A stretch of 64,000 bases of DNA from Synechococcus sp. PCC 7502 (GTDB lineage Bacteria > Cyanobacteriota > Cyanobacteriia > Pseudanabaenales > Pseudanabaenaceae): the NCBI RefSeq assembly GCF_000317085.1, contig NC_019702.1, positions 588,394-652,393 of the forward strand. Reading direction: 5' to 3'. Under the pieces are notes generated by a model. It was not told where the DNA came from and did no database searches. It saw only the letters and a list, made by a program, of their open reading frames with translations. The position numbers and the translations under genes are program-made. Below, piece by piece: positions 27,188-56,754 of the stretch. The first letter of the stretch is position 1. Each line of letters begins with the position of its first letter.

Positions 27188-28316
27188 TTAACCACTAATG
27201 GAGCGGGACTTAATAAGAGATTGATCCTTGGGATCGTACACAGCCTTTTTACGAACTACAGAAGCTGGATTTGGACCAACCAAACGATGTAATTCCTCAG
27301 GACGAGAAGTTTTAGAAATTGCAGCTTCAAAGCTAATCTCACCTTCTTTGTATAAATCTGCTAAAACTGACTCTAGGGTCTGCATGGACTCTTTACCTCC
27401 CGTTTGGATAAACCCATACATCTGTGCCGTTTTACCTTCCCGAATCAGGTTAGAAATTGCTGGAGTTACGATCATAATTTCCTGTGCCATGACTCGACCA
27501 AACTGCCCAGGTTGGGGATTCGCCCGTGGAATTAAAGTTTGGCTTAGGACAGCAACGAGAGAGTTAGATAATTGCACCCGAATTTGTCCCTGTTGACTAG
27601 GTGGGAATACATCTACCATTCTATCTACGGTTTGGGCTGCCGAACTAGTATGCAATGTGCCGAATACCAAGTGCCCTGTTTCTGCTGCCGATACTGCTAA
27701 TTGAATTGTTTCTAAGTCTCTCATTTAGGGCAGCTTTGAGCGCAAAAGCAAAACTTTTAGTATCTTCACCAACCTGTCTTTGATTAATGACACTTTTGAC
27801 AGATTCGTAGACAAATTCAATGGGGTCTTCAACCGTCAGAATATGCTCGGCTCTAGTTTTATTAATGGTTTGGATCATTGCTGCTAGGGTTGTCGTTTTA
27901 CCTGATCCAGTCGGACCTGTTACTAGTACTAATCCCCTAGGTTTCTCCGATAATTCCTTCACAATTGGGGGTAGCTTCAAATCATCCATGTCGGGAATTT
28001 TAGAAGATAATGCCCTTAAACAAGCAGCAACTGTTCCTCGATCTTTATAAACATTGACCCGAAATCTAGCTAAGCCCTTAACTCCGTAGGAGCAGTCTAG
28101 TTCCCAATTTTGCTCAAATATTTTACGCTGATTATTGTTTAACATCGCAAAGATCAGCCTTTGGGTTTCCTCAGGGGTAAGTGGATCGCGATCGGTAGGT
28201 GTGAGATGTCCACTAATCCGAATATAAGGAGGTAAACCAGCCGAGATATGAAGGTCAGAAGCTTTGCGCTCCACTACCTCTTCCATTAAGTCCTCAATAA
28301 TATAGTCCATTACCAT
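27188..28316 (-). pseudogene. pilT: pilT retraction ATPase, disrupted by an internal 32-nt deletion
   Basis: The first part (from ATG 28316) encodes a normal PilT start and Walker A (VLVTGPTGSGKTTTLAAM) down to FALKAAL. Family members continue there with about eleven residues of the type REDPDxILVGE and then MRDLETIQLA. Here GCCCTA is followed by a single A and then ATGAGAGAC (junction at 27725). About 32 bases are missing, the frame shifts, and translation ends at 27645. The downstream half (from 27724, MRDLETIQLAVSAAETGHL to the end) is intact, with no other lesion. The missing piece includes Walker B, so neither part can hydrolyse ATP. PilT retracts pili; loss normally gives non-retracting pili. 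Confidence 0.9.
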
Positions 28317-36822: not shown

Positions 36823-39066
36823 ATGAATGAGCGATCGCTGCATTTGTCACCCGAAGGCATTAAAAAAGTAAATCTGGCTCTAGCTGCTAAAACCATGACC
36901 ACCGAGCGGTTAGCTATAGAGTTAAAGTTGGCGAGCTTATATGTGAATAAATTTTTCCGAGGTGAAGCGATTCCCACCCAACTATTTGCCCAAATTTGTG
37001 ATGGACTAAGCTTAAATTGGCAGGAATTATTTGATAAATCTGCACCACCTCCCGCCACCTTGAGCATTGACAGCACCGTGCAGGAAATCCGCCAAAAGTG
37101 TCACGAAAATCTAACCAAACGCTGTAATCGCATTAGAATCCCTGACATGACCGAACCTAGGGAGCTAAAAGAGGTTTATACCAGTATCAATATTGTTGAG
37201 GAAATCGGACAACTACGGGAAAGACTGAGTTTTATCAACGATCGCTCTGGCATTTTGACTAAGATTGGCGATCGCCTGAAACGAGATGGGAATGCCGAAG
37301 ATTTAGATCGATACCTGAGCCGAGTTGCGGTGAAATCTGTACCCGCCCTCAATGCCATCAAAGAATACAGTAAATTAATCATCCTCGGTGGTGCGGGCAG
37401 TGGTAAAACTACTTTTTTAAAGTATTTAGTCCTGCAATGCCTCAATAGTAACTTTCACGGTGAACTGGTTCCCCTATTAATCTATCTTAAGGATTTTGCC
37501 GAAAGTTCTAAAACCCTACCAGAATATATCCTAGCCACATTTTTAAGCTATGGCATTAAAGACTTGCACCATATTGAGCAATTTTTAAATCAAGGCAATT
37601 TACTAATTCTCCTAGATGGCTTGGATGAAGTCGATCAACCGAAACAAAGACAGGTAATTACGGAAGTTAAAAATCTCGCCGATCAGTTTCATCGCAATCA
37701 TATTTTTGTGACCTGTCGGGTTTGTGACTATCGGTTTGAGCAATTTTCAGAGGTACAGATTGCTAGATTTAATGATGAACAAATTCAAACATTTATTCGC
37801 CAATGGTTTAATAATCGGGATATTACCAAAAACTTTATGGCAGCGATCGCTGAAAATCCAACCATCAGAGAATTTGCCGAAAATCCCTTACTTTTAACTT
37901 TTTTATGCTTAATCTTTGAGTCGAAAAGTAGTTTTAATTACCTTGAAATTATTGATAAGTGTCTAGGTTTATACTTAAAGAAATGGGATCAAGAACGAGA
38001 TATTACGACTAGAAACTTACCCATAGAACTTAATGCTTGGAGTCGTCTTGCTCTTCTAGGCATGGATGCTGGTAAGTATATATTTAAGGAAAATTATCTG
38101 ATAGCATCTCTTTTTTCTCCTACTCAATCTAATCAAGAGCTAGATTTAAAAGCCATCCTCAAAAATGGCATCCTTACTCAGAGACACGAAGATACCTATG
38201 CTTTCTCCTACAGTCCATTTCAAGAATATTTAACAGCCAAGAAAATTGCCGAAAGTTCTAATCCCCAGGCATTAAATTATTTAATATCTCGATTTGAACA
38301 ACCAAGGTGGCAAAATGTAATTCTGCTAACATCAGGAATGCTAGAAAATGCCGACGAATTAGTGATTAAACTACATAAAAAAGCTAATCAAATACTAGAA
38401 AAGCAACAAAATATTCAAGAATTCTTAGACTGGATTAATAAAAACTCCAACTACCTAAGAGTTTCCTATCAGCCTAGTACCTTACGCGCCTTTTATTTAG
38501 ATATTGACCTGAATAACTTTCGGATTCAAGATCGGAATCGCGCGATCGAAATTACCCGCAATCGTACCATTGACAGACTAAAGGAACGCTCTGGTGATAC
38601 CACTGGCTCTGCCATAAAAAAGCCTCTAGATGAAGATACTAGCGGCATCTCTGTTACTTCCTTAAATCCAGATTACGACCTCGCAATCGCCCTTAATCAT
38701 CACCTTGCAATATATGTGGCTAATCATTCTATACTCTACCTAGCAGGATTATTGGAACCGCAACTAAGGCGATCGCTGCAAGTGCTGAAGGAGCAACTAC
38801 CCGACCCCTCAACTGAAGCAGATAAGTTTAATAGTTGGTGGCAAAGCTATGGCATGAACTGGTCGAAGGACTGTCGCAGTCTTTTAATTCAGCATCGTAA
38901 GGGTACGCAAGACTGGAGCTTTAGTGCTACTGAAGAAGCTTTACTCAGGCGTTACCATGATGCCCATGTACTTTTAGTGAACTGCCTGAATACCAGTGCG
39001 ATCTCTCTATCTGTGAAGCAGGCTGTTTTAGATACGATGTTTTTACCAATTTGGCAGCAACCTTAA
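36823..39066 (+). CDS. HTH-NACHT STAND NTPase
   Basis: This 747-residue protein has an N-terminal HTH-like module (about 1-70, LSPEGIKKVNLALAAKTMTT) and a linker. A NACHT NTPase follows with Walker A LIILGGAGSGKTTFLKYL (about 184-200), Walker B NLLILLDGLDEVDQPKQ (about 257-273) and a helical wing (FAENPLLLTFLCLIF). The C-terminal region (about 480-747) is mostly helical, with no WD40, TPR or leucine-rich repeats and no recognised effector. NACHT proteins are signalling switches; some bacterial ones defend against phage. The same HTH module starts the cyclase at 54202-56190. Function here is inferred only from fold. Confidence 0.85.
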   Translation: MNERSLHLSPEGIKKVNLALAAKTMTTERLAIELKLASLYVNKFFRGEAIPTQLFAQICDGLSLNWQELFDKSAPPPATLSIDSTVQEIRQKCHENLTKRCNRIRIPDMTEPRELKEVYTSINIVEEIGQLRERLSFINDRSGILTKIGDRLKRDGNAEDLDRYLSRVAVKSVPALNAIKEYSKLIILGGAGSGKTTFLKYLVLQCLNSNFHGELVPLLIYLKDFAESSKTLPEYILATFLSYGIKDLHHIEQFLNQGNLLILLDGLDEVDQPKQRQVITEVKNLADQFHRNHIFVTCRVCDYRFEQFSEVQIARFNDEQIQTFIRQWFNNRDITKNFMAAIAENPTIREFAENPLLLTFLCLIFESKSSFNYLEIIDKCLGLYLKKWDQERDITTRNLPIELNAWSRLALLGMDAGKYIFKENYLIASLFSPTQSNQELDLKAILKNGILTQRHEDTYAFSYSPFQEYLTAKKIAESSNPQALNYLISRFEQPRWQNVILLTSGMLENADELVIKLHKKANQILEKQQNIQEFLDWINKNSNYLRVSYQPSTLRAFYLDIDLNNFRIQDRNRAIEITRNRTIDRLKERSGDTTGSAIKKPLDEDTSGISVTSLNPDYDLAIALNHHLAIYVANHSILYLAGLLEPQLRRSLQVLKEQLPDPSTEADKFNSWWQSYGMNWSKDCRSLLIQHRKGTQDWSFSATEEALLRRYHDAHVLLVNCLNTSAISLSVKQAVLDTMFLPIWQQP

Positions 39067-39373: not shown

Positions 39374-42300
39374 ATGCCGTCCAGTGACGAATTAAGTAGT
39401 GGTAGATTACTACAAAGGAGTTTGCTCCCTCAAGCTATCCCTAGTTATCTGGGGCTAGATATTGCTGCGGATGTATGGACAGCGGTGGATTTAGGTGGTG
39501 ACTATTATCAATTTTTAGAGCAACCAGGAATTTTGGGTGTAGCGATCGCTGACTCTTCGGGAAAGTCTGTGGCTGGTGCCATTCATGCTGCTTTATTTAA
39601 AGGACAATTAGACGCTTTTGCGACCCAAGGAAGACTGCGGAACCCTACCACGGTGATGACATCGCTGAATCAATTACTATGTGCCACTAATACCGATGAT
39701 GCTGTAGCTCTAGCCTATGGAGTTTTAGACCTAGAAACCTATGAATTTCAAATTGGGAATGCGGGAATTCCTGGTCCAGTTATCTATCGTGCTGCCACAA
39801 AAAGCTGTGAAGAAACAGTCAATCCCTCTATGGCACTGGGTCGATACGAAGGCATCCCCTACAGAACCCTAACCAAGCCTTTTAATGAAGGTGACATCGC
39901 CATTTTCTTTAGTGATGGATTATACGAAGCGAGCAATGCCAATGGAGATGAGTTTGGTACTGCTAATGATAAAGGTATTAGCCCGTTAAAGTTTGTCATT
40001 AGTAGTTTGGCTCACCTCCCCGCCGCAAAAATTTTGGTTGGCTTAAAACTGGCACTAGATAAATTTACGGGACGGGAAATTCCCGAAGATGACGTATCCA
40101 TTGTGGTGATTAAGCTGAACCAAAAGGTGGCGATGACCAAAACTCGGGACTGCCCCTACCAAGAAGCATTACAGGCATGGATGCGCTCTGATGAAAAGGA
40201 TGATTCCGCTTTACTGCGTGGTACCAGATTAGTTGAAGCTTTAGGCTGGGCAAAGGCGCAACCAAGTTTAAGTAGACTGGATACAGAATTTTTAGAAGCC
40301 AGTGAACGGGTCAATGAGCGCGAACAAATGCAGGCTCAATTACTAGAGGCCGCTACTAGTAGGGCTGCGGCTGCCGATCGCCTCGAAAAACTGAGTCAAG
40401 ACCTTGCCAAAAGCCTAGAAAGTGAAAAGCAGCAACGCATTCAAGCGGAAATGGGAGAAATTAGTGAGCGAATTGTAGCTCTGACCATGTCCTCTGAGGC
40501 ATTATTTCTTTCCCATAATCACATTGAAGCTTTAATTTCTAGCGTGATAGCTGGGGTTAAAATTCGCCAACTCACTTCCCAAGTTACCAATGGCATTGCC
40601 CACCTGAAAGCAAATACGCAAATTCGCACGATCACCGCCCTAGAACAAGTAATTTACGGAATCCATGAATACAACCGCTATGAAGGACATGGTTTTTGGG
40701 TAAATAAAGTCTGCTTCAGTGCCGATGGTAAGTTTTTGGTTTCCGCTAGTAGCGATCGCACGATCAAAGTTTGGAATATCAATGGCACATTACTACAAAC
40801 CCTCTACGGACATACTAATTGGGTTACAAGTGTTGCTATTAGTCCCAACGGGAAAATGATCGCCTCTGCTAGTCGGGACAATATGATTAGGCTGTGGAAT
40901 TGGGATCAAACCATTGGTGCCTTCAAAGAAACTGGCTCCACTATGCTTAAAGGACATGATGGTCCAGTCCTAGATGTCTGTTTTAGCTCTGATGGTGAAT
41001 ACATTGCCTCGGCGGGAGAAGATACAACCGTAAGGCTATGGAAAGCCAATGGTACCTTAATTAAAACTTTTCGAGGTGGACATGAACGCTGGGTTACCTG
41101 TGTTGCTTTTAACCCCAATGGGAAAGAGGTGGTTTCAGGAAGTGCTGATCGCACCCTAATTATTTGGAATATCAATGGGGCTGTGGTTAAGACTCTCAAA
41201 GGACATGATAGCTTTGTGGAAGCTGTGGCATACGAGCCCCACGGACAGGCAATTATTTCTGGTAGCCGCGATCGCACCATGAAGCTTTGGGGTAGTGATG
41301 GAGTACTTTTACGCACTTTCCACGGACATACGGATAAACTTTGGAGTGTTGCCTATTCCCCTGATGGTAAAACCATTGCCTCCGCAGGTAGCGATCGCAC
41401 GATCAAAGTCTGGGATACCGATGGCACCTTACTCAGAGACCTAGCTGGACATGGCGATGCCGTTAATAGTATAGCTTTTAGCCCTGATGGCAAAAGTCTA
41501 GCTTCTGCCAGTCGGGATACAACCGTAAAATTATGGAATATTCGCGGTAATCCCCTGCGGAAACTCTTAGCACAAGATGATGTTTGGGCAGCAGCCTTTA
41601 GTCCGAACGGTAAATTTATTGCCACTGGTGGTAAAGACAAAAATGTAAATATTTGGAATATGGCGGGAAATTTAGTAGCGAGTTTGTCTGGACATAATGA
41701 TGCCATCAATAGCATTTGTATTAGCCCTGATAGCTCCGTGATTCTATCGGCAAGCACTGACAGTAGTATTAAATCCTGGAGTCCTGATGGTAGGGCGATC
41801 GACACCCTCAATGGTCACAGATCAGAGGTTTATTGCCTGAGTTTTAGATCCGATGGACAGGTATTTGCCTCTGCCAGTGCTGATAACAGCGTAAGGCTAT
41901 GGAGCGCAGATGGAGTATGGTTACAAACCTTAAATGGGCATACCGCAGAGGTCTATGCCGTTTGCTTTAGTCCCGATGGCAGTATGTTAGTTACAGCAGG
42001 CAAAGATAAAATCATTAATCTCTGGAGTTGGGATGGCAGACTGGTTTACAGCTTTGAGGGACATAGTGCTGAAGTTTTGACCCTCTGCTTTAGTTCAGAT
42101 AATAGTACCTTTGCCTCGGGTAGCATGGATCAAAGTGTAAAAATTTGGAGCGTAGATGGTTCCCTCCTTAAAACCCTGAATGGTCATAGTGCCGAAGTTC
42201 GCAGTATTTGTTTTAGTCCCGATGGCAAAACCATAGCCTCCGCTAGTGAAGATACTCTGGTACAACTTTGGAGCCTAGATGGTACTTTACTAAGAACCTT

Positions 42301-42547
42301 TAACGGACATAAAAGCGCAGTCAAGAGTATTTCTTTTTCAGCCAATGGCAAAATCTTGATGTCTGCAAGTGCGGATAAATCCGTAATTCTCTGGAACTTG
42401 GATTTAGATAATTTGCTCATGCGGGGTTGCAGTTGGCTACAGGAATATCTAAAAACCAATACAAATGTATCCGAAGAAGATCGCCGTAATTGTTTAGGTG
42501 GCTGTAGTTGGCTGTATAAGCACCTTAAATCTAATGCTGCCAGCTAG
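39374..42547 (+). CDS. SpoIIE/RsbU-type PP2C phosphatase fused to 14 WD40 repeats
   Basis: Residues about 8-250 form a SpoIIE-like phosphatase: LLQRSLLPQAIPSYLGLDIA, DLGGDYYQF, VAIADSSGKSVAGA, FFSDGLYEASNANGDEFG and EIPEDDVSIVVIKL. The metal-binding Asp residues are all present. A helical, coiled-coil linker follows (about 290-390), then 14 WD40 repeats (about 435-1010), enough for two seven-bladed propellers. The tail repeats a GCSWL motif twice (GCSWLQEYLK, GCSWLYKHLK), a motif common at the end of cyanobacterial NTPase-WD40 proteins. RsbU-type phosphatases dephosphorylate STAS anti-sigma antagonists. I start at ATG 39374; a GTG at 39368 is also in frame. Confidence 0.9.
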   Translation: MPSSDELSSGRLLQRSLLPQAIPSYLGLDIAADVWTAVDLGGDYYQFLEQPGILGVAIADSSGKSVAGAIHAALFKGQLDAFATQGRLRNPTTVMTSLNQLLCATNTDDAVALAYGVLDLETYEFQIGNAGIPGPVIYRAATKSCEETVNPSMALGRYEGIPYRTLTKPFNEGDIAIFFSDGLYEASNANGDEFGTANDKGISPLKFVISSLAHLPAAKILVGLKLALDKFTGREIPEDDVSIVVIKLNQKVAMTKTRDCPYQEALQAWMRSDEKDDSALLRGTRLVEALGWAKAQPSLSRLDTEFLEASERVNEREQMQAQLLEAATSRAAAADRLEKLSQDLAKSLESEKQQRIQAEMGEISERIVALTMSSEALFLSHNHIEALISSVIAGVKIRQLTSQVTNGIAHLKANTQIRTITALEQVIYGIHEYNRYEGHGFWVNKVCFSADGKFLVSASSDRTIKVWNINGTLLQTLYGHTNWVTSVAISPNGKMIASASRDNMIRLWNWDQTIGAFKETGSTMLKGHDGPVLDVCFSSDGEYIASAGEDTTVRLWKANGTLIKTFRGGHERWVTCVAFNPNGKEVVSGSADRTLIIWNINGAVVKTLKGHDSFVEAVAYEPHGQAIISGSRDRTMKLWGSDGVLLRTFHGHTDKLWSVAYSPDGKTIASAGSDRTIKVWDTDGTLLRDLAGHGDAVNSIAFSPDGKSLASASRDTTVKLWNIRGNPLRKLLAQDDVWAAAFSPNGKFIATGGKDKNVNIWNMAGNLVASLSGHNDAINSICISPDSSVILSASTDSSIKSWSPDGRAIDTLNGHRSEVYCLSFRSDGQVFASASADNSVRLWSADGVWLQTLNGHTAEVYAVCFSPDGSMLVTAGKDKIINLWSWDGRLVYSFEGHSAEVLTLCFSSDNSTFASGSMDQSVKIWSVDGSLLKTLNGHSAEVRSICFSPDGKTIASASEDTLVQLWSLDGTLLRTFNGHKSAVKSISFSANGKILMSASADKSVILWNLDLDNLLMRGCSWLQEYLKTNTNVSEEDRRNCLGGCSWLYKHLKSNAAS

Positions 42548-54201: not shown

Positions 54202-56190
54202 TTAAGTATTTTTACTGATTAACCAATAGGTGGTCATGTTACCTTTACCCTTGATCGGAATTTCACCCCTTTTCTCAAAGGTATATCGATCCTTAAGTTG
54301 AAGATAGGTTGCCTCGGATACTTGAATTCTTTGTGGCTCTCCGTGGGACTCCATGCGACTGGCAATATTAACCGCATCTCCCCAAATATCATAAACGAAC
54401 TTATTGGAACCAATTACACCTGCAACCACAGCCCCAGAATTAATCCCGATGCGGAGGCTCATGGGTTGGTTAAGATGATTTTTAAATTTAGTAATTTCTG
54501 TCAGCATACTTAACGCCATATCAGCAATGATTTCGGCATGATCTGGTCTAGGGTTGGGCATACCACTGACAACCATATATTGATCACCAATGGTTTTAAT
54601 TTTCTCTAAGCCATAGTCGTTGCTTAAATGATCAAAATTGGAAAAAATATGATTAAGGAGTTCTACGGTTTCGCTGGCAGAAAAATGAGAACACACCTGC
54701 GTAAACCCAACTATGTCGGCAAATAGTACAGAAACTGCATCATAGGCACAGGCGATCGGTTTGCGAGTTTGTTTAAGGTGTTGGGCAATTTCTTGGGGGA
54801 ATATACTTTGTAGTAATTCTTCTGATTGTCTATAGTCAATTTCCATAGATTCTAAAAGCAGTTCATAGGCTATTTCCATATTTTTCTGCTGGGAAATATC
54901 AATGATTACTCCATCCCAAACAATGTCTTTATTAATTGATTGATGGGGCTGTGCTAAGATTCTGACCCACCTAGCTGCACCAAGCTCTTGCACAAGTCGA
55001 TATTCGTAGTCGAGATTGCTAAGTTGGCGTTTTGATTCCTCTAAGGCTCGATATAGCTCCATCCGATCTTCAGGGTGAACCACATCAAAAATCCATTCAA
55101 AGGTTTCCGTAAATTCTTGAACAGTTATGCCAAGGAGTTGTTTGATCCTAGGGCTAAGATATGGCATTGTGACTCGACCATCTTGATGGGATATGGCTCG
55201 GTAAACTACACCGGGGATATTGGCAATGAGGGCAGCTAATTGTTGTTCTTTTTCTTTGATCTGATTGGTGAGAATTAGCCGATCGCCTGATTCCTTTTGT
55301 AGTTGGATATTTTTTTCTTGCAGGTGACGTTCTATATTTTGACGAGTTTGAATTTCCGCTTGGAGAATTAGGTTTTGTTCCTTCAGCAGTTTTTCCGTTT
55401 TGAGCCTACTCTGAATCTCTTTTTGGAGCAGAATATTTTGTTCTTGCAGGACTTGATCTACTTCTACCCGATGTTCAACTTCTTGTTCGAGAAGGTGATT
55501 TTGCTGTTTTAGTTGATTTTTAAGATGGCAAATAGTCAATTGGTTTTCGACTCGGGCAATGACTTCTTCCACCTGAAATGGTTTCGTAATATAATCAACG
55601 CCGCCAAGGTTAAAAGCCCTCACTTTATCCAGAACTTCATCAAGGGCACTAATAAAAATAATGGGAATATCTTTGGTTTTAGGACTGGACTTTAGCCTTT
55701 GGCAGACTTCATAGCCATCCATTTGCGGCATCGTAATATCCAATAAAATTAGATCGGGAGCAGATGTTTGTACGGCAGTTAGAGTCATCATGCCATTGAC
55801 AGCCTTACGCACTTTATACCCTCTTTCACTGAGCATACTTGATAAAAGCCGAATATTATCAGGGCGATCGTCAACTACGAGAATGTCAGGAATGGTAGTT
55901 CGAGGTGAAAAATTACTATCTATAGTTCTTATGTCTAAAGTATTTATGTCTAAATCAGTGGTACCATCTATATGCTTAGCGGCGATCGCCTGCCAGTCTA
56001 AGTTTAATTTTTGAGAAATTTCGACAAAATTCAAATAATCAATGGGCTTGCCGTTGAAGAAACTATTTACGGTCGGACGGGTTAAGCCCACATCAATCGC
56101 CAGCGCACTTTGACTAGGGTAAGAGCTTTGTCGTAGCGCAAGCTGTACCCTTTCTATATGTTCTGGAGCTACTCGGATCGACCTACCCAT
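54202..56190 (-). CDS. HTH-REC-PAS-adenylate cyclase
   Basis: This 662-residue soluble protein begins with an HTH-like module (1-70, VAPEHIERVQLALRQSSYPS). A receiver domain follows (about 102-220, phosphoacceptor Asp151 in LLDITMPQMDGYE, Lys203 in ITKPF), then a long coiled coil (about 215-320), a PAS fold (about 320-440, DYEYRLVQELGAARWVRILA) and a class III cyclase (about 475-660). The cyclase has both metal Asp residues (LFADIVGF, TIGDQYMV), and the adenine-selecting Lys (KIKTIGD) and Asp (VYDIWGDAVN) favour cAMP over cGMP. A partner histidine kinase is expected but none is adjacent. Confidence 0.92.
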   Translation of the reverse strand: MGRSIRVAPEHIERVQLALRQSSYPSQSALAIDVGLTRPTVNSFFNGKPIDYLNFVEISQKLNLDWQAIAAKHIDGTTDLDINTLDIRTIDSNFSPRTTIPDILVVDDRPDNIRLLSSMLSERGYKVRKAVNGMMTLTAVQTSAPDLILLDITMPQMDGYEVCQRLKSSPKTKDIPIIFISALDEVLDKVRAFNLGGVDYITKPFQVEEVIARVENQLTICHLKNQLKQQNHLLEQEVEHRVEVDQVLQEQNILLQKEIQSRLKTEKLLKEQNLILQAEIQTRQNIERHLQEKNIQLQKESGDRLILTNQIKEKEQQLAALIANIPGVVYRAISHQDGRVTMPYLSPRIKQLLGITVQEFTETFEWIFDVVHPEDRMELYRALEESKRQLSNLDYEYRLVQELGAARWVRILAQPHQSINKDIVWDGVIIDISQQKNMEIAYELLLESMEIDYRQSEELLQSIFPQEIAQHLKQTRKPIACAYDAVSVLFADIVGFTQVCSHFSASETVELLNHIFSNFDHLSNDYGLEKIKTIGDQYMVVSGMPNPRPDHAEIIADMALSMLTEITKFKNHLNQPMSLRIGINSGAVVAGVIGSNKFVYDIWGDAVNIASRMESHGEPQRIQVSEATYLQLKDRYTFEKRGEIPIKGKGNMTTYWLISKNT

Positions 56191-56403
56191 AGCTTGAAGA
56201 ATTACTTAAGAACTCTTTTAATCTTACAACTTTTACGGAAGTTTTACACCTATGACTTTTATCTTTAGATAGATGTTAGACAGTCATGGCTTTCAATAGT
56301 ATTAGTAACAAAGATTACATTGTTATTCCCTTCTGACTTTAAAGATTCAAGAAAGATTCAAGAGTCTAGGGAGTATGGCAATAGAGTCTGAATCGTTAAA
56401 AAT

Positions 56404-56754
56404 GTGCTGAAAGTCATGATTACTAAATGTTTGGAGCTATTGCAATTGTCTAAAAAAGTAGTAATATTTAAGCCCAATGGTCGGCTGGATGCTGAGTCTT
56501 ATGCACAGATAAGAACTGAGGCAATGGCGATCGCTAATACAAATCCCGATATATTAGTGGTGGACTTAGAAAATATTGCATTTGTAGACAGTAGGGGTTT
56601 AGGGCTATTAATTACCCTATTAAAGTTAATGCGGAGTAGAGAAGGACAATTGGTTCTGTGTTCAGTCCGTCAAGAAGTTCAGGCTTTATTGGAGTTAACG
56701 AATACTGATCGCTTGTTTGAAATTTCTGAACATTATCCTAGTAACTTAAATTAG
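56404..56754 (+). CDS. STAS-domain anti-sigma factor antagonist
   Basis: This is a single STAS domain of about 112 residues. GRLDAESYAQIRTEAMAIAN and DILVVDLENIAFVDSRGLGL contain the family core; the Ser in VDSRGLG is the site usually phosphorylated by an anti-sigma kinase and cleared by RsbU-type phosphatases. The frame opens with GTG 56404 and the ATG at 56416 is an alternative. It diverges from the cyclase gene. The PP2C-WD40 protein in this window is a possible partner, but they are 14 kb apart. Confidence 0.88.
   Translation: MLKVMITKCLELLQLSKKVVIFKPNGRLDAESYAQIRTEAMAIANTNPDILVVDLENIAFVDSRGLGLLITLLKLMRSREGQLVLCSVRQEVQALLELTNTDRLFEISEHYPSNLN

Follow-up and report, generated by a model that had tools for sequence, protein, structure and literature searches.

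The window analyzed here is a stretch of 64,000 nucleotides from Synechococcus sp. PCC 7502 (contig NC_019702.1, positions 588,394 to 652,393), and coordinates given without a contig or locus name are positions within it. At 39374-42547 on the plus strand the window carries a gene for a SpoIIE-type phosphatase fused to WD40 repeats. The gene is a single open reading frame (ORF) of 1057 codons with an ATG at 39374 and the stop at 42547; a GTG two codons 5' of this ATG is also in frame as a possible start. Nothing sizeable precedes the phosphatase domain at the N-terminus. The following features were assigned.

39374-42547, plus strand: whole gene, SpoIIE phosphatase, linker, 14 WD40 repeats and doubled GCxWL tail, 1057 amino acids (ORF, Pfam, orthologs in 38/38 family genomes)
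39374-40123, plus strand: N-terminal SpoIIE-type PP2C domain, residues 1-250, with conserved aspartates D43, D60, D181 and D239/D240 (PF07228, E 9.4e-29; fold matches 3ke6, 5ucg and 6k4e)
40151-40693, plus strand: linker, residues 260-440, with an LLRG segment, a long predicted helix at ~301-379 and helices up to EGHG; it overlaps the first strand of propeller 1 (alignment, genome search, model)
40664-41548, plus strand: WD40 propeller 1, residues 431-725, blades 1-7 (VIA-align to 7big, Z 50.0)
41549-42403, plus strand: WD40 propeller 2, residues 726-1010, blades 8-14 (VIA-align to 5yzv, PkwA, Z 46.9)
42404-42544, plus strand: tail, residues 1011-1057, two predicted helices with one GCSWL in each, at 1018 and 1043 (motif positions, model, comparison of C-termini)

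Pfam assigned residues 53-248 to PF07228 (SpoIIE) with 101.2 bits against a cut-off of 25. At E 1 nothing else matched within the first 425 residues, and no nucleoside triphosphatase (NTPase) domain was found there. The aspartates D43 (GGDYY), D60 (ADSSGK), D181 (SDGL) and D239/D240 (EDD), which we take to be the metal-binding sites of the SpoIIE-type family, were invariant in a full-length alignment of 22 rows. Two AlphaFold2 models were used, a full-length one built from 22 family sequences and a second one of residues 1-440. The second model was aligned with 3ke6, the RsbU and RsbW domains of Rv1364c (Z 22.4, 215 residues, root-mean-square deviation (rmsd) 2.7), with 5ucg, SpoIIE (Z 21.1, 212 residues, rmsd 3.0), and with 6k4e, SiaA (Z 20.6, 217 residues, rmsd 3.1). 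In a separate set of alignments with solved PP2C domains, which stop by residue 197, D43, D60 and D181 fell on the same motifs. As modelled at modest confidence, the N-terminal domain has a PP2C fold.

The WD40 repeats start at residue 438, and PF00400 matched 14 stretches (E 1.3e-161) at a spacing of 40-48 residues, mostly 41. In the full-length model the propellers were predicted with confidence, which dips at residues 724-728. Residues 431-725 were superimposed on 7big over 286 residues with an rmsd of 1.2, and residues 726-1010 on 5yzv over 282 residues, again with an rmsd of 1.2. The top-ranked Foldseek match was 2ymu, to which residues 438-1008 aligned over 558 residues (Z 48.1, rmsd 15.2); this large deviation probably reflects a different relative orientation of the propellers. 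The separate matches of the two halves point to two seven-blade propellers in the model and not to a single irregular one. 2YMU, the WRAP propeller of Npun_R6612, likewise has 14 blades in two seven-blade propellers, according to the part of the article available (PMC6805158), and it is 48% identical over the 558 aligned residues. The WRAP blades are described there as near-identical and recently amplified, whereas the blades of the protein studied here have a mean identity of 40%. When the window protein was compared with the distant copy L105, the same blades were 57% and different blades 40% identical, and the same blade gave the best match for 11 of 14. To judge from these sequences, the blades of the phosphatase-WD40 protein are individually conserved.

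Downstream of the second propeller GCSWL occurs at residues 1018 and 1043. Two GCxW[LF] motifs were present in 33 of 35 phosphatase C-termini (frames longer than 800 amino acids, window included); one of the two exceptions is truncated and the other has SC instead of GC in the first copy. The exact GCSWL is found twice in the window protein and its nearest relative, and most orthologs have GCQWL and GCGWL instead. Since the full-length relatives are 60-68% identical and nearly all of the C-termini carry both motifs, the architecture goes beyond chance. The earlier note on this DNA had described a SpoIIE-type phosphatase with all metal residues, 14 WD40 repeats and a doubled GCSWL tail at these coordinates, and had raised the question of two seven-blade propellers; the ORF, the Pfam matches, the motif positions and the model agree with it on each of these points. 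We are much more confident that this protein combines a SpoIIE-type phosphatase domain with a double propeller than we are of the complete mechanism proposed below.

The gene was present in all 38 searched genomes of the family Pseudanabaenaceae, which represents the whole order in the genome collection used. The full-length open frame was retained in 29 of them, the window included, while six copies were broken and three cut. Relatives within the genus reach 90% identity. Among the 29 intact copies, the match in L052 begins only at residue 27 and the tail in G029 is cut short. In G009, G028 and G034 contig ends or an N gap truncate the copy; an in-frame insertion in G034, which yields an ORF of 1211 amino acids, was considered as an intein and turned out to be a stretch of N. 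In G002, G008, G011, G020, G033 and G035 the gene is broken by frameshifts, one stop codon and insertions, and the idea that the split ORFs are separate genes was rejected for this reason. Some of the breaks may be sequencing errors. G033 carries a DDE transposase gene between two parts of the propellers. In G008 (Pseudanabaena biceps O153; L057:5500-6700 and L109) the gene is interrupted, just past the region of the DSSGK active site, by ~0.77 kb that contain no long frame; a few codons match on either side. The broken copies, six in 38 genomes, would be compatible with a degenerate or inactive phosphatase that serves only as a scaffold. We consider this very improbable: the metal-site aspartates are invariant in the aligned intact copies, and conservation is equal in the phosphatase domain and the linker (62-71% compared with 61-73% identity in relatives outside the genus, partial copies aside).

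Outside the family the fusion was not seen in 382 Cyanobacteriota genomes (samples of 386 genomes including four family members, E 1e-40), and a profile search at E 1e-22 found it only in the four family members, with 31 other genomes matching the phosphatase part alone; both searches scored at most four candidates per genome, and divergent fusions can be missed; no broader search was made in other phyla. A scan over all bacteria and archaea with two narrow peptide patterns, which recognize close relatives only, gave 27 loci, labelled as Pseudanabaena, Pseudanabaenaceae, a Phormidium tenue, Oscillatoriales and unclassified cyanobacteria. A quickly built tree of 34 rows, based on residues 1-440, grouped together the members of every genus represented more than once, four in all, as expected for vertical descent. 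A pentapeptide-repeat gene (Pfam) lies upstream of the phosphatase gene in 21 loci, and genes for YraN-like protein, EF-Tu, EF-G, S7 and S12 were recognized by eye nearby in orthologous loci. Among the 25 largest gene clusters spanning at least four loci, only the phosphatase gene and antisense ORFs were common to the window and other loci.

The WD40 propellers of STAND-type proteins in bacteria are regarded as sensors, for the most part of unknown ligands. The linker connects the phosphatase to such proteins. It was predicted in the second model as a long helix at residues 301-379 followed by shorter helices, and it is 30-41% identical to the linker of AAA_35-linker-WD40 proteins from the same family, in which all five N-termini tested contained AAA_35. 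A linker profile made from eight phosphatase and seven AAA_35 rows matched in 73 of 244 sampled genomes (E 1e-12). Among 30 loci drawn from the best matches, 29 have an AAA_35 N-terminus, as judged by BLAST to the tested N-termini, and the remaining one is the window phosphatase. These cyanobacterial, STAND-like proteins have the same linker of ~180 amino acids, WD40 propellers and a tail motif. In the protein studied here, by contrast, a phosphatase stands in the NTPase place and the tail motif is doubled instead of single. Complete AAA_35 proteins outside the family carried one loosely defined tail motif in 18 of 18 cases and two in none; this motif consists of [GAS]C (once GR) followed by ..[LIVM]..Y[LF] or the like, and the strict GCxW was present in 8/18. 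In seven AAA_35 proteins from within the family GCxW was absent; six end in a GN/AN-type variant without cysteine and L076 ends in GCNKL. A further AAA_35 protein, L189 from family genome G026, has no tail motif, and its C-terminus does not consist of WD40 repeats.

In the linker tree the 38 phosphatase rows form one clade (100/100), set apart from every AAA_35 row by a long branch with 1.88 changes per site. The split is clean and the bootstrap was not settled; these linkers were not found to nest within the AAA_35 proteins, which would give the direction of a swap. Breadth of distribution speaks for a phosphatase having acquired an AAA_35-type sensor, and the linker tree gives no proof of direction. 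The earlier note had regarded the protein as the product of an exchange of an NTPase for a phosphatase on a shared sensor architecture, with a GCSWL-type tail typical of the NTPase proteins. The shared architecture is supported by the linker and by the single tail motif of the AAA_35 proteins, but the direction of exchange is not.

The kinship with the AAA_35-WD40 proteins in linker, propellers and tail would also suit a conflict or cell-suicide protein resembling STAND/WD40 proteins with the same sensor, in which the phosphatase would act as effector once the propellers have recognized an invader. In the window a NACHT gene (36823-39066) immediately precedes the phosphatase gene, and a relative of it occupies the same place in the sister genome G006 with 78% identity over the C-terminal part; it was found beside the phosphatase in none of the other loci searched. 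Unlike patchy, fast-changing defence genes, the phosphatase-WD40 gene is present in every family genome, is apparently inherited vertically and is conserved blade by blade. PADLOC gave one match, HEAT-ARM_XIII, to the WD40 repeats only, and NCBIfam gave no match near a cut-off. Such a role in conflict therefore appears improbable. In the available text of a survey on conflict systems, PP2C appears a single time, in the role of a linked gene (PMC7159879). As a separate observation, the protein at 36823-39066 (plus strand) contains NACHT and NCH2 (Pfam) and has a weak PADLOC match to PDC-S60.

A candidate partner system was found next to the phosphatase gene in other members of the family. In G005 and G033, two genera that branch separately in the tree, a gene pair for an RsbW-like kinase (HATPase_c_2) and a STAS protein, often overlapping by four bases, lies divergently upstream of the phosphatase at a distance of ~0.37 kb and ~0.89 kb, respectively. 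In G001 the two frames begin near contig starts, 216 nt away for the phosphatase and 496 nt away for the kinase, in an orientation that fits a divergent pair, which is suggestive of a third case. The STAS gene of this operon is present in all 38 family genomes with 72-100% identity to the G005 copy, in G035 in two pieces. In a phylum sample of 292 genomes it was found in three, all within the family, and no match was obtained at E 1e-10 in the 289 outside. The kinase adjoins the STAS gene in 35 of the 36 genomes fetched, the exception being G006, which ends at a contig end; for G029 and G037 the adjacency was established by search coordinates. The kinases have the N-box in 35/35, DxGxGF in 34/35 and GGFGIH in 33/35 cases, and the serine motif TK[IV]VSRGVGAAID of the STAS protein is present in 36/36. 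The VSRG serine is the putative phosphorylation site. HATPase_c_2 and STAS were above the Pfam cut-offs, and the NCBIfam models for RsbW and its antagonist matched below theirs. The C-terminal part of DnaE adjoins the operon in G036 (L226:4461-5792) and G013 (L227:6634-8019); it begins, by eye, like a split-intein C fragment, and L227 has HHH_6 and an OB fold (Pfam).

The earlier note had suggested testing the phosphatase on the STAS protein at 56404-56754 of the window. This protein has a match in each of the 38 family genomes (E 1e-8), but in genomes other than its own the best of these were only 31-49% identical. Since this is the level expected for paralogues, the protein is not a conserved partner, and it has to give way to the operon STAS as the better substrate candidate. 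For the 56404-56754 protein, the top match in G036 and G037 is a STAS protein encoded near the phosphatase (31-33%), which is closer to the product of C3:2603922-2604227 in the window genome (61%). At 54202-56754 a response regulator-PAS-adenylate/guanylate cyclase gene (minus strand, Pfam) adjoins the STAS gene, and the two form a possible separate signalling pair. The N-terminus of the cyclase (54202-56190) looks similar, by eye, to that of the NACHT protein.

From these data we infer a lineage-specific partner-switching system with a STAND-type propeller sensor, and we give the whole chain, including activity, substrate, ligand, dimer control and target, about an even chance of being correct. 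The signal would be a ligand, probably a protein, perceived by the propellers and the tail. Through the long helical linker the change would reach, from the C-terminal side, either the switch helices of the N-terminal phosphatase or its dimer state. The active phosphatase would then take the phosphate off the serine in the TK[IV]VSRGVGAAID motif of the small STAS protein. The bare STAS protein would hold the RsbW-like kinase of the same operon, and the kinase's own target, a sigma factor or other regulator, would be freed. When no signal is present the kinase would phosphorylate the STAS protein and bind the target instead.

Several observations speak against this chain. The PP2C part of the models is of modest confidence, and the arrangement of the domains was not predicted (pTM 0.42 and 0.54). 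The kinase-STAS pair was found in no other phosphatase locus searched, several of which are short; linkage was seen in 2/38 genomes, with G001 as a suggestive third. The window genome has its copy of the operon at C3:3319.5-3320.3 kb, which in contig coordinates is 2.7 Mb away from the phosphatase gene (~0.8 Mb in the opposite direction, should the contig be circular). The shared distribution of phosphatase and operon is weak evidence, both being limited to one clade. Besides the fusion, the window genome contains nine other SpoIIE-type matches and 13 HATPase_c_2 matches, some of which are surely histidine kinases. The broken phosphatase genes and the NACHT neighbour belong on the same side, as does a STAS gene of another type. 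This DSSGLG-type STAS is encoded upstream of the phosphatase, at a distance of 1.6 kb, in two genomes of one genus, G036 and G037 (L045:3171-3500 and L046:1538-1870), with Mrp-like and pentapeptide-repeat genes in between. Its relatives occur in all 38 family genomes (E 1e-20), with identities of 52-61% outside the genus and 39-42% in G030 and G031.

The DSSGLG-type STAS is a rival substrate of the WD40-fused phosphatase. The phosphatase might act on this or a different STAS protein, on proteins phosphorylated by eukaryote-like Ser/Thr kinases, or on proteins docked to the propellers, and one of the nine further SpoIIE proteins might serve the operon. Fusions of Ser/Thr kinases with WD repeats are known from cyanobacteria, where the accessible text describes 4-14 WD repeats joined to the kinase (PMC1262709), and a phosphatase counterpart to these phosphorylation enzymes is plausible. 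However, the domain in question is SpoIIE-type and not a eukaryote-type PP2C. The closest relative of the DSSGLG-type STAS gene in the window genome (C3:2603922-2604227) shares a terminal overlap with another SpoIIE match (C3:2604187-2604984), which suggests that this STAS protein has a partner of its own. Finally, it is the kinase-STAS operon that is the direct divergent neighbour in two separately branching genera. Taking both sides into account, we judge a different substrate to be rather unlikely, and we retain the operon STAS as the substrate in the proposed partner switch.

Two further signalling loci were observed in the window genome (G000). SpoIIE, HATPase_c_2 and two STAS matches lie within ~5 kb at C3:306-310 kb, perhaps another partner-switching cluster. 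At C3:2729193-2730338 SpoIIE and HATPase_c_2 matches share one frame of 754 amino acids, apparently a phosphatase-kinase fusion reminiscent of Rv1364c. Elsewhere in the window the pilT-like gene at 27188-28316 (minus strand) is split into the overlapping frames 27645-28316 and 27188-27724 by a frame shift at ~27724; a short stretch that is presumably normal for PilT proteins seems to be absent near this position.

The sensor phosphatases SpoIIE, RsbU and SiaA share PF07228 with the protein studied here and are its best fold matches, and an RsbW-like kinase and a STAS protein are encoded in the same genomes. The order of the domains is different. In SpoIIE, according to the available part of the article, the phosphatase is preceded by a regulatory region that includes a long helix, mediates dimerization and moves two switch helices (PMC5468089), and in SiaA and RssB the profile positions also place the phosphatase after a regulatory part. 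In the fusion, by contrast, the phosphatase comes first and is followed by the linker and the propellers.

Partner-switching sets have been reported from other cyanobacteria. Slr1861/Ssr1600/SigC of Synechocystis is described, in the section of the source available, as the only classical partner switch shown to be functional in cyanobacteria, and its phosphatase as unknown (PMC12329169). It likewise combines an RsbW-like kinase with a STAS antagonist, whereas the operon STAS described here is confined to the family in the sampled genomes. A phosphatase/STAS/kinase set of the same Rsb-like kind, HmpU-W, acts in hormogonia of Nostoc punctiforme, where the STAS protein HmpV is itself said to be the output in the text at hand (PMC6495340). 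No description of a SpoIIE-WD40 fusion was found in the open-access literature, with most subscription journals and the protein databases outside this scope. In a systematic study of prokaryotic WD40 proteins the terms SpoIIE, PP2C and phosphatase were absent, by term count, from the main text as available (PMC5587647). Both halves of the protein are known, and what is new is the combination of a SpoIIE-type phosphatase, probably one of partner switching, with a STAND-type sensor.

A wider proposal is that the whole family put a SpoIIE phosphatase in the NTPase place, so that the propellers became the input of a partner-switching cascade of its own, with a dedicated kinase-STAS operon and control from the C-terminal side. 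We advance this tentatively, as possible and somewhat doubtful. If true, it would mean that sensors have been reused between STAND NTPases and partner switching. Here the propeller sensor is attached to an enzyme whose output could be assayed directly on a small STAS protein, which would make the question of the ligand testable. The system also provides cyanobacteria with a candidate phosphatase-kinase-STAS set; the classical Synechocystis switch is still without a phosphatase in the account available (PMC12329169).

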